This document shows, one piece after another, positions 28,294-42,557 of a DNA stretch of 64,000 nt. The translations under genes were made by a program, and so were the position numbers. The notes beneath the pieces were generated by a model. It did no database searches. It worked only from the letters and a program-made list of their open reading frames with translations, and had not been told where the DNA came from. The stretch covers positions 1 to 64,000 of the forward strand of contig MAAF01000064.1 in assembly GCA_002163005.1 (NCBI GenBank). Reading direction: 5' to 3'. Each line of letters starts with the position of its first letter. The first letter of the stretch is position 1. The stretch comes from Colwellia psychrerythraea (GTDB lineage Bacteria; Pseudomonadota; Gammaproteobacteria; Enterobacterales; Alteromonadaceae).

Positions 28294-29424
28294 CTACTCA
28301 ATCTTAACTGAATTATTCACAGGTAATATACCACCATGTTTCACGTGAAACATGTGATATTTATTTTTACTACTCTCTTTATTAGTAACTGAGTCGTCAT
28401 TAATAAAAGGTTGTAATACACCCTCTTCTATTGCCGTAATAATTACTTGGCAATCCAAAATACTTAAAGCCGTTGACAAAGATTCTCTAGAATTAGCATC
28501 TAATTCAGCACCTATGTCGTCAATAAGTAAAATTGGTTTTACTCGATTAACTCTTGCAATCAATTTAGCCTGTGCAAATGTTAATGCCAGTAAAAACAAC
28601 TTTTGTTGTCCCCTCGAAAGTTGACTCTCTAATGCCTGCTTTGCGATGAGAAATTTCACATCAAATTTATGCGCACCATAAATACTATAACCAAAAGCTT
28701 GTTCTCTTTCATGGCTATCGCTTAACGCATCAATTAAATTCTTTTTTTGTGGCCAACCCTGTAAATATTGTACAGTTACCTTGTCAGCAATATTGGGTAA
28801 CAAAATTTCTAACCAATAGGGTAACTCTGAAATTAAGTTAGTAATGTATTGAGATCTAACTTCAGCAACCTGCTCTGAAAGTTGACAAAATAAACCAGTC
28901 CAATAATCAAATGTAGCTTTATCTAAACTATGCCGTATACAGGCATTACGCTGTTTTAATACTCTGTTGAATTCACGCCATTGTTTAGATGAATCATGTT
29001 TCACGTGAAACATACCTAACTCTATAAAACGTCGACGTTCTTTCGGTCCTCCAAAAAACAATTTAAAACTTTCAGGAGTGACGATTTGCACAGCAATATT
29101 TTTTGCCAACTCAGATAAACGTGCATGACGCTCACCATTAATTTTAATGAGCGTAACGCCGGTCTGTAAATTTTTACTTAAGCCAAGTTGTAACTCGTTT
29201 ACATCTTTAATACTGACAACAAAATTATCGGTTTCGTAACTGGCAAGATGCTCTACTTTACTCGTTCGAAATGACTTGCCGTGACCTAGAAAAAATATGG
29301 CTTCAAGTAAGCTACTTTTTCCACTGCCATTATTGCCAACAAAAAAATTAAGCTTGGGATGTAAATCAATAGCAACAGATGACAAGTTTCTAAAGTTATA
29401 CGTAGTAAGCCTGGCAACACTCAT
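28294..29424 (-). CDS. recF: DNA repair/recombination ATPase RecF
   Basis: SMC-like ATPase that helps load RecA at single-strand gaps. 376 residues: Walker A GNNGSGKSS (30-38), signature SRGQQKLFLLAL (about 269-280) and Walker B ILLIDDIGAELD (about 303-314). E. coli RecF has 357 residues; the excess is mainly a C-terminal tail. The hexapeptide MFHVKH occurs twice, in the conserved mid-region and in that tail, in each case encoded by a perfect parS sequence. It lies between dnaN (36 bp) and gyrB (9 bp). Confidence 0.97.
   Translation of the reverse strand: MSVARLTTYNFRNLSSVAIDLHPKLNFFVGNNGSGKSSLLEAIFFLGHGKSFRTSKVEHLASYETDNFVVSIKDVNELQLGLSKNLQTGVTLIKINGERHARLSELAKNIAVQIVTPESFKLFFGGPKERRRFIELGMFHVKHDSSKQWREFNRVLKQRNACIRHSLDKATFDYWTGLFCQLSEQVAEVRSQYITNLISELPYWLEILLPNIADKVTVQYLQGWPQKKNLIDALSDSHEREQAFGYSIYGAHKFDVKFLIAKQALESQLSRGQQKLFLLALTFAQAKLIARVNRVKPILLIDDIGAELDANSRESLSTALSILDCQVIITAIEEGVLQPFINDDSVTNKESSKNKYHMFHVKHGGILPVNNSVKIE
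28337..28352. promoter_or_regulatory. parS centromere site, distal copy in recF
   Basis: Exact 16-bp palindrome TGTTTCACGTGAAACA, the bacterial parS consensus bound by ParB. Flanking bases extend the palindrome to 20 bp. It lies in the C-terminal tail of recF, encoding FHVK and neighbours. parA and parB are in the same window about 12 kb away. Confidence 0.95.
28997..29012. promoter_or_regulatory. parS centromere site, proximal copy in recF
   Basis: Second exact TGTTTCACGTGAAACA palindrome, 660 bp from the first and in the same codon phase, so it also encodes MFHVKH. Here the peptide coincides with the conserved FHV-x-H region of RecF. Confidence 0.95.
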
Positions 29425-37759: not shown

Positions 37760-38140
37760 ATCTAACGTGATCACTTACCCATAAGTTATCAACAGATTAT
37801 GATCTGTTTTTTTACCATTGTGGATAAAACGGTTAATAACCCGTTAATTTTCTATTATTATTCAGTTGATTAAAAACATTATTAAAAGCCCTGTGTATAA
37901 CTCGGCATTTTGATCAAAGCTTATTTGCCTGTTGATCAATGTTTGATCACAACGTTATCATCACTGTTACTTATTAATTTATATAGAGAAAAATGACTTA
38001 CCCACAGAAAAATAGGATCTTAATAAGTAATAACTATAAGATCTTTCTAAAGATCTCTTTTTATATATTAAGGATCCACTCCGATCTTTTTTACACATTT
38101 GATCGTATCCTTGAAGAGAAAAAAGCGGTAAAATACGTTC
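37760..38140. other. Chromosomal replication origin oriC
   Basis: Gap between mioC and mnmG with the E. coli oriC layout, read on the minus strand. DnaA boxes: TTACCCACA at 37998-38006 in the R1 position, TTATACACA as reverse at 37892-37900 (R2), TTATCCACA as reverse at 37819-37827 (R4), plus TTATCAACA at 37786-37794. There are 12 GATC sites between 37759 and 38104. The segment 38010-38100 is A/T-rich with repeated GATCTT/GATCCT 13-mer-like units next to mnmG, fitting the unwinding region. Boundaries are approximate. Confidence 0.9.
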
Positions 38141-38214
38141 CCTAATTTTTGAGTGTTACAAATTTTGTAATCTCTTTTTAAATAAAAACTTTAATCAATC
38201 AGGATTGTTAATTT

Positions 38215-40833: not shown

Positions 40834-41640
40834 GTGGGAAAAATAATAGCAGTTGCAAATCAAAAAGGTGGTGTGGGTAAAACAACTACCGCGGTTAATT
40901 TGGCTGCCTCGCTGGCGGCGACGAAACGCAAAGTTTTATTAATCGATTTAGATCCCCAAGGCAATGCGACTATGGCTAGTGGCGTTGATAAATACCAAGT
41001 TCATGCGACTTGTTATGAATTATTAGTTGAAGAGCAAAGTGTTGAAGACGTTGTCATTAAAGAAACGTCAGGTCTTTATCATTTAATTTCGGCCAATGCT
41101 GATGTTACAGCAGCTGAAATAAAGCTAATGGAAGTATATGCTCGTGAACAGCGTTTAAAAAACGCTTTAGCGCCAGTAAAAGATTTTTATGACTTCATCA
41201 TCATAGATTGTCCACCATCATTGAATATGCTTACCGTTAACGCTATGACTGCAGCAGACTCCGTTCTTGTGCCAATGCAATGTGAATACTATGCATTAGA
41301 GGGTCTAACGGCGCTAATGGACACCATTACTAAGTTAACGTCAGTCGTGAATGATAAATTACATATTGAAGGCATTCTTCGCACTATGTATGATCCTCGA
41401 AATCGCTTAGCTAATGATGTATCTGAACAATTAAAACGACATTTTGGTGATAAAGTTTATCGCAGTGTCATTCCGCGAAATGTTCGTTTAGCTGAAGCGC
41501 CAAGTTTTGGTACACCAGCCATGTATTACGATAAATCTTCAACGGGCGCCAAAGCTTATTTAGCGCTTGCCGGTGAAGTATTACGTAAAAATGATTATGC
41601 TAAAAAATCTCCGCAAGCTAAGGCCAGTGTTGCCAGCTAG
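40834..41640 (+). CDS. parA: Chromosome partitioning ATPase ParA (Soj)
   Basis: Walker-type ATPase that segregates newly copied origins together with ParB-parS. 268 residues. The deviant Walker A KGGVGKTTTAVNLAASLA is at residues 11-28, followed by LLIDLDPQGNAT and the Walker B region FIIIDCPPSLNML. The short N terminus, with no HTH domain, marks the chromosomal type. The start is GTG at 40834, supported by AGAGG five bases upstream. It is followed by parB after 14 bp. Confidence 0.97.
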   Translation: MGKIIAVANQKGGVGKTTTAVNLAASLAATKRKVLLIDLDPQGNATMASGVDKYQVHATCYELLVEEQSVEDVVIKETSGLYHLISANADVTAAEIKLMEVYAREQRLKNALAPVKDFYDFIIIDCPPSLNMLTVNAMTAADSVLVPMQCEYYALEGLTALMDTITKLTSVVNDKLHIEGILRTMYDPRNRLANDVSEQLKRHFGDKVYRSVIPRNVRLAEAPSFGTPAMYYDKSSTGAKAYLALAGEVLRKNDYAKKSPQAKASVAS

Positions 41641-41654
41641 CACAAAGGAAAATT

Positions 41655-42557
41655 ATGAGTACAGCAAAACGTAAAGGCGCTAGTCGCTTAGGTCGTGGTC
41701 TTGATGCCCTATTATCACCAGCGATACCAGCAGTAGAACAGCAAACAGATACTACTGAAGCAAGCAATAGCGTAAAAGCGACAGATAATGAACTGCTAAA
41801 ACTATCTATTACAAAATTAACGCCTGGTAAATATCAGCCACGTCGTGAAATGTCTGATGCAGGTCTTGAAGAGTTGTCATTATCTATTCAATCGCAAGGT
41901 ATAATTCAACCTATTGTTGTACGTTTAGTTGCCGATGATCAATATGAAATCATTGCTGGTGAACGCCGATGGCGTGCGGCTAAATTAGCACAACTTGATA
42001 TTGTCCCTTGTTTAGTTAAAAACGTGCCTGATGAATCAGCGGTAGCTATTGCACTCATTGAGAATATCCAACGTGAAGATCTTAATGCCATGGAAGAAGC
42101 CGTTGCATTAGAACGCTTATTAACTGAATTTGATTTAACTCACCAAGAAGTCGCTATTGCAGTTGGTAAGTCTCGTACTACGGTCAGTAACTTATTGCGT
42201 TTAAATAAATTAAATGAAGAGGTAAAAACCTTTTTAGAAAATGGTGATATTGAAATGGGTCATGCCCGTGCTTTATTAGCATTAGAAGGTGATGTACAAA
42301 CTTCTGCAGCACAAACTGTTGCGACTAAAGAATTAACAGTAAGAGAAACTGAAAGTTTAATTAAAAAGATTCAAAATCCGATAGCTGAAAAAGAGAAAGT
42401 TGAAAAAACTGTTGAGACCATAGAGTTGGAACAAGGTTTAGCAGATAAAATTGGCGCTAAAGTTGCTATTAGCCATAATAGTAAAGGTAAAGGTAAGCTT
42501 GTTATCTCTTATGAAAACTTAGCAAAACTTGAAGAGATATTAGCCAAAATTAACTAA
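41655..42557 (+). CDS. parB: Chromosome partitioning CTPase/DNA-binding protein ParB
   Basis: Binds parS, spreads as a CTP-dependent clamp and recruits SMC/ParA. 300 residues: N-terminal KRLGRGL-like start (ASRLGRGLDALL), PGKYQPRRE and the CTP-binding GERRWRAA and ENIQREDLN motifs, the HTH region VAIAVGKSRTTVSNLLRL, and a C-terminal dimerisation domain. Two perfect target sites lie in recF about 13 kb away. It ends the mnmG-rsmG-parA-parB run; a terminator follows. Confidence 0.97.
   Translation: MSTAKRKGASRLGRGLDALLSPAIPAVEQQTDTTEASNSVKATDNELLKLSITKLTPGKYQPRREMSDAGLEELSLSIQSQGIIQPIVVRLVADDQYEIIAGERRWRAAKLAQLDIVPCLVKNVPDESAVAIALIENIQREDLNAMEEAVALERLLTEFDLTHQEVAIAVGKSRTTVSNLLRLNKLNEEVKTFLENGDIEMGHARALLALEGDVQTSAAQTVATKELTVRETESLIKKIQNPIAEKEKVEKTVETIELEQGLADKIGAKVAISHNSKGKGKLVISYENLAKLEEILAKIN

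Follow-up and report, generated by a model that had tools for sequence, protein, structure and literature searches.

The recF gene of Colwellia psychrerythraea contains two identical 16-mers, and this locus raises the question of whether they are chromosomal centromere sites (parS) that are also read as protein, or simply the codons of a RecF motif. In the window, i.e., the whole stretch of 64,000 nucleotides analysed in this study, TGTTTCACGTGAAACA occurs exactly at 28337-28352 and 28997-29012. The sites are 660 bp apart and lie in the same frame of the minus-strand open reading frame 28294-29424, in which both are translated as MFHVKH. A sequence-only reading of the window had described two perfect 16-mers that are in phase and place MFHVKH twice in the protein, and these points were confirmed. 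The 16-mer fits the parS palindrome TGTTNCACGTGAAACA, with two exact matches, and a scan of the window allowing up to two mismatches returned no site besides these two. The features discussed below are as follows.

28294..29424, minus strand: recF, 376 amino acids, host of both sites (TIGR00611, 308.9 bits against a cut-off of 172)
28337..28352, no strand assigned: predicted C-terminal parS (site 2), codons 358-363, MFHVKH, 0 mismatches
28997..29012, no strand assigned: predicted internal parS (site 1), codons 138-143, MFHVKH, 0 mismatches
37760..38214, no strand assigned: probable oriC, the mioC-mnmG intergenic region (DnaA boxes, GATC, GC skew)
40834..41640, plus strand: parA, partition ATPase (ParA-type matches; directly 5' of parB)
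41655..42557, plus strand: parB, chromosomal ParB, the expected binder of both sites (TIGR00180, 183.2 bits against a cut-off of 58.45)

The host gene scores above the curated cut-off of the RecF equivalog model TIGR00611, and the gene order is gyrB-recF-dnaN-dnaA / rpmH-rnpA-yidD-yidC-mnmE-mioC-mnmG-rsmG-parA-parB, in which the names other than recF, dnaA, mnmG, parA, and parB are our reading of the translations. The parB product contains the Pfam domains ParB_N, HTH_ParB, and ParB_C, each above its gathering threshold; with parB above its cut-offs and a ParA-type ATPase gene adjoining, the window carries a chromosomal ParA and ParB pair. The best match of the ATPase is NF041546 (118.8 bits, under its cut-off of 180), and none of the 25 models listed among the 31 that matched reached its own cut-off. 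The probable oriC holds three of the eight DnaA-box-like TTWTNCACA sites in the window together with 11 GATC sequences, and the cumulative GC skew reaches its minimum at 33-34 kb and rises little from there to 39 kb. The distance from the parS sites to the mioC-mnmG region is about 8.7-9.9 kb, in agreement with the 9-10 kb to oriC proposed earlier. A DnaA-box-like sequence, TTATTCACA, lies at 28313-28321, 15 bp from site 2; it is a single match and possibly due to chance.

In the assembly (4,614,230 bases in 121 contigs, 94% complete, the missing part of which could hide more parS), no site other than the two in recF, about 9-10 kb from the probable oriC, has fewer than 2 mismatches. Two further sites appear at 2 mismatches, and when up to 2 mismatches are allowed, a reversed control pattern has 4 forward matches, equal to the number for the pattern itself. 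A count of the 16-mer over the chromosome had been proposed as a check for random scatter, and no scatter was found. The sequence of the sites, their position, and their uniqueness in the assembly are thus direct observations. With parAB at a distance of 12 kb and the probable oriC at about 9 kb, both 16-mers are very probably functional parS, and their earlier identification as such is borne out by sequence, position, and context.

The same arrangement is known in Pseudomonas aeruginosa, in which parS1 and parS2 are located in recF, so that two ori-proximal parS lie within this gene as in the window (PMC5521831, PMC3909081, PMC4368675). According to the available passages of these papers, recoding of parS1 and parS2 led to the loss of ParB silencing in vivo, ParB binding to the mutated sites in vitro was reduced 2- to 10-fold, and segregation needs just one of the four ori-proximal parS; we deduce from the same passages that the substitutions are all silent in the recF frame. 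The recF gene of Pseudomonas viridiflava encodes VFHVEP (TGTTCCACGTGGAACC) followed by MFHVEH (TGTTCCACGTGGAACA), and the variants and order of P. aeruginosa parS1 and parS2 match this pair. By this comparison via P. viridiflava, the order and sequence variant identify site 1 of the window as the counterpart of parS1 and site 2 as that of parS2, for both of which specific ParB binding has been reported (PMC5521831, PMC3909081, PMC4368675). By analogy with parS1 and parS2, ParB binding and a role in segregation would be expected in the window organism. Some differences were observed: the available passages give P. aeruginosa ten putative parS, including two more intergenic sites near oriC, whereas only the recF pair was found in the window organism; the window has the TTTCACGTGAAA form, which encodes Lys, whereas P. 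aeruginosa has the TTCCACGTGGAA form, which encodes Glu; and the spacing is 660 bp in the window and 630 bp in P. viridiflava.

In Caulobacter crescentus, parS are described as located inside genes that are essential or of high fitness; however, in the accessible part of that source recF-gyrB is a hot spot for artificially inserted parS, and the native cluster is not placed in recF (PMC5815017). The window 16-mer also fits the Bacillus subtilis parS consensus given above (PMC7022226), whereas the ten parS of that species, eight of which are in the ori domain, are described there, in the portion available, with no mention of a recF pair. Because P. aeruginosa parS1 and parS2 have already been published in recF, the window is not new in kind but a further case of a known arrangement; with the pair also common across the class, the novelty seen in the locus by the sequence-only reading was overstated.

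The extent of the arrangement was examined in a class sample of 143 gammaproteobacterial genomes, consisting of one genome per family and a second genome of the window's family (G006). Any RecF match was found in 131 of these, about 11 of which have weak matches only, leaving about 120 with real RecF; 12 genomes have none. We read 110 recF genes (left out: G155, G172, G178, G193, G194, G208, G212, G234, G265, and G288), taking as the site the best-matching in-frame 16-mer close to the internal column of the alignment or within the last 60 codons. With up to one mismatch to TGTTYCACGTGRAACA, 84 genes carry both sites, 10 the internal site only, 8 the C-terminal site only, and 8 neither (i.e., 94/110 at site 1 and 92/110 at site 2), and when an intact TTYCACGTGRAA core is also demanded, the corresponding numbers are 81, 11, 8, and 10. 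Both sites are perfect in 38 of the 110 genes, and the spacing in the 84 two-site genes is 600-669 bp, with a median of 621 bp. Among 67 named loci, a few of which are from outside the Gammaproteobacteria, 26 have both sites, 7 the internal site only, 12 the C-terminal site only, and 22 neither; nine of an initial 76 (L242-L250) were dropped as partial ATPase matches only. The two-site named loci include Pseudoalteromonas, Pseudidiomarina, Chromohalobacter, Stutzerimonas, Halopseudomonas, Alcanivorax, Methylophaga, Marinobacter, and Microbulbifer. The comparison of RecF from relatives that had been proposed as a check therefore shows both copies to be common across the class. Because of this frequency, the segregation signal has probably shaped parts of the repair protein RecF for a very long time. 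An ancestral state of the pair in the class is inferred.

The conservation, which is observed directly in the aligned genes, extends to the choice of synonymous codons. When FHV[EK] segments of the 110 class RecF proteins were picked by peptide alone, 182 of 186 were encoded by CAC-GTG-RAA; the DNA at these sites is conserved beyond the protein code. In a test against the codon usage of each gene (108 of the 110 class genes; sites were selected as the best match at the DNA level, after which a peptide filter was applied), GTG was found at 91/92 and 90/90 motif valines, with 28.0 and 28.5 expected, and CAC at 91/92 and 88/90 motif histidines, with 38.2 and 37.8 expected. In the window's family, CAC occurs in 10/10 (2.5 expected) and GTG in 10/10 (2.0 expected) at each site. 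Of 146 conserved RecF columns, the four with the most extreme codon bias are Val141, Val361, His140, and His360 (window numbering). The claim that variation of recF is constrained by the DNA site is therefore upheld by this codon lock. The fifth outlier, Ser119, lies outside the parS sites; its codon is AGT in 44 of 84 genes of the class sample, with 14.0 expected.

At the Phe codons 139 and 359 (window numbering), the silent T/C base is the same in both sites in 77 of 101 class genes, with 59.3 expected (z = 4.6), which is the strongest covariation among 210 column pairs; the next is His140-His360 (z = 3.4). In phylogenetically independent pairs, a mean of 2.2 changed the same way, 0.1 the opposite way, and 3.8 showed no difference. 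Because these independent pairs are too few, the silent covariation between the sites is suggestive. Covariation of Glu and Lys between the sites gave p = 0.04 unstratified and p = 0.10 stratified. A search of the PDB returned RecF chains, and in the three alignments displayed, the internal peptide shows no conservation and the alignment stops before the C-terminal motif.

The loss of ParB was followed in the window's order, for which 148 genomes were sampled (139 with recF and 9 without). With a ParB relative of at least about 190 bits, which is our own threshold, as the definition of ParB-positive, 109 recF-bearing genomes are ParB-positive and 30 ParB-negative; weak ParB-like matches were found in 6 of the 38 genomes off the ParB list (G018, G022, G080, G097, G112, and G126), all of which are among the 30. 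The alignment contains 139 recF loci (109 and 30, respectively), of which G029 gives two; the split recF of G111 (L142) was kept out, and its fragment entered the perfect-parS count alone. A perfect parS (TGTTYCACGTGRAACA) is present anywhere in 107/109 ParB-positive versus 0/30 ParB-negative recF-bearing genomes, and within recF in 77/109 and 0/30, respectively. Of the 109 ParB-positive loci of this order, only 40 have a site 1 with at most one mismatch; the figure for site 2 is 98, 82 of which have an intact core. On a tree flagged for long branches, ParB changes state twice, and because of this the association between ParB and the sites is by itself neither significant nor independent evidence.

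The peptides mostly decayed in the ParB-negative loci, which rests on about two independent losses: FHV[EK] is found in 0/30 at site 1 and in 1/30 (G004) at site 2. In these loci, Phe is kept in 27/30 and His in 26/30 at site 1, and Phe in 29/30 and Val or Ile in 26/30 at site 2. As had been proposed from the sequence, the internal copy thus falls on a conserved RecF motif, the Phe-His of which is kept in most ParB-negative relatives. Since an in-frame parS always encodes FHV[EK], the informative cases are sites that are not parS, and among such ParB-positive loci FHV[EK] occurs in 10/69 at site 1 (families f2, f12, and f15) and 1/11 at site 2. Because Phe-His and Phe-x-Val/Ile persist where ParB is absent, the palindrome seems to have been built upon these pre-existing features at sites 1 and 2, respectively, and the remainder of each peptide seems mostly to accompany parS, with exceptions. 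In family f3, ParB is present but diverged (38-52% identity), and both recF peptides are gone in 8 of 9 genomes; perfect parS number 0 to 9 per genome, most of them not in recF, which would fit a relocated centromere.

The second copy had been placed in a C-terminal tail missing from E. coli RecF; this was contradicted by the E. coli K-12 recF gene, in which the counterpart peptide was located. K-12 RecF has MFTVEKG at residue 347 (DNA ATGTTTACCGTGGAAAAG), 207 codons after CFHNE at 140, i.e., 621 bp, the median spacing of the class, and site 2 of the window is homologous to this peptide. At the same position, TGTTCCGCGTGGAACA (MFRVEQ), one base off parS, is found in the named loci L182 and L198 (Brenneria and one of two Pantoea loci) and likewise in the ParB-negative genomes G010, G097, and G126; in these recF genes it looks like a fossil centromere site. 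Families f21 and f6 are labelled Vibrio- and Shewanella-like because their closest named RecF are those of Vibrio and Shewanella (75-82% identity). In 14 of 17 of their loci, site 2 is TGTTYCATGTGGAACA, with FHVE kept and the core broken (CATGTG). At site 2 of the FHV[EK] loci of these families, CAC is used in 1/16, GTG in 15/16, and GAA in 16/16. In TGTTYCATGTGGAACA, only the right half of the palindrome core, GTGGAACA, is intact, the left half being broken; because P. aeruginosa ParB is reported, in the accessible part of the source, to bind a heptanucleotide half-parS (PMC7022226), TGTTYCATGTGGAACA may be a retained half-site. Sites of this type were seen, for example, in L094 and L019 of f21/f6 and also in the named loci L184, L227, and L232.

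An origin of both palindromes by chance within one gene has a probability that we regard as practically nil: short palindromes do occur in coding DNA, but none of 100 dinucleotide shuffles of the window reached two matches, even when two mismatches were tolerated, no exact match to the reversed control pattern exists in the 148 order genomes, and the sites are conserved across families, so that chance is ruled out. If FHVKH were a functional motif of RecF and the palindrome a by-product of its codons, the retention of Phe and His at site 1 and of Phe at site 2 in ParB-negative loci would be expected, as would the FHV[EK] peptides at site 1 of ParB-positive loci without parS and the FHVE of the Vibrio- and Shewanella-like families despite the broken core. 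However, the synonymous codons at both sites are locked to parS far past codon usage, and FHV[EK] is almost absent from ParB-negative loci. The codon tests rule out a purely protein-level motif as a sufficient cause, and we consider protein-only conservation very improbable.

It is comparably improbable that the sites mainly let ParB tune the expression of dnaA-dnaN-recF-gyrB rather than serve segregation. As far as the available passages on P. aeruginosa go, an excess of ParB lowers the expression of genes adjoining parS1-4, for which the authors propose interference with the dnaA-dnaN-recF-gyrB operon; however, in the same work, when ParB or the sites were lost, expression rose near the intergenic parS3 and parS4 alone and not near the intragenic parS1 and parS2, and the sufficiency of a single ori-proximal site for segregation also stands against a mainly regulatory role (PMC5521831, PMC3909081, PMC4368675). 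A regulatory role is the weaker alternative because the intragenic sites left the expression of their neighbours unchanged at native ParB levels.

We are therefore highly confident that the 16-mers are genuine parS, probably the main or only high-affinity chromosomal centromere, that they are translated and jointly constrained, and that the pair probably dates back to the ancestor of the Gammaproteobacteria and decayed on loss of ParABS. In the proposed mechanism, ParB produced from parB, 12 kb away, would load at each palindrome and spread onto the flanking DNA, and ParA would then separate the duplicated origin regions. Because the parS sites are also translated, the two RecF peptides would be dictated jointly: protein needs would set Phe-His at site 1 and Phe-x-Val/Ile at site 2, and the palindrome would set the codon choice and most other residues of both peptides. 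The recF pair would be ancestral in the class and would decay where ParABS was lost.

A more detailed account is considered somewhat more likely than not. It holds that the pair is an ancestral, dual-coded gammaproteobacterial centromere that has fixed the codons and several amino acids in most sampled families, that a silent base covaries between the two copies as though they followed their own ParB, that the motif is freed mainly on loss of ParABS or relocation of parS, and that fossil parS are left in enterobacterial recF. An arrangement that the papers found document for one Pseudomonas species would become a testable general rule, in which the sequence of a bacterial centromere may be translated and constrain the evolution of the resulting protein, and loss of the segregation system frees it. 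The recF parS would serve as a natural experiment on DNA-level versus protein-level selection, and they predict the location of the main parS in many unstudied Gammaproteobacteria; every perfect site lies inside recF in 43 of the 107 ParB-positive genomes of the order with a perfect parS. In the available portions of the parS and recF literature, Livny et al. 2007, reportedly the main comparative survey of parS, aside, no mention was met of the extent across the class, of the codon lock, or of the decay that follows ParB loss, and we claim no priority for them.

Additional sites were observed in a few genomes. The recF gene of L015 (G075) has three in-frame parS (1892, 2117, and 2513), the extra one of which is 225 bp past the first. 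In G012, G057, G106, and G142, which belong to three families, an extra perfect parS is located about 2.5-2.6 kb beyond site 2 of recF, near the expected end of gyrB.
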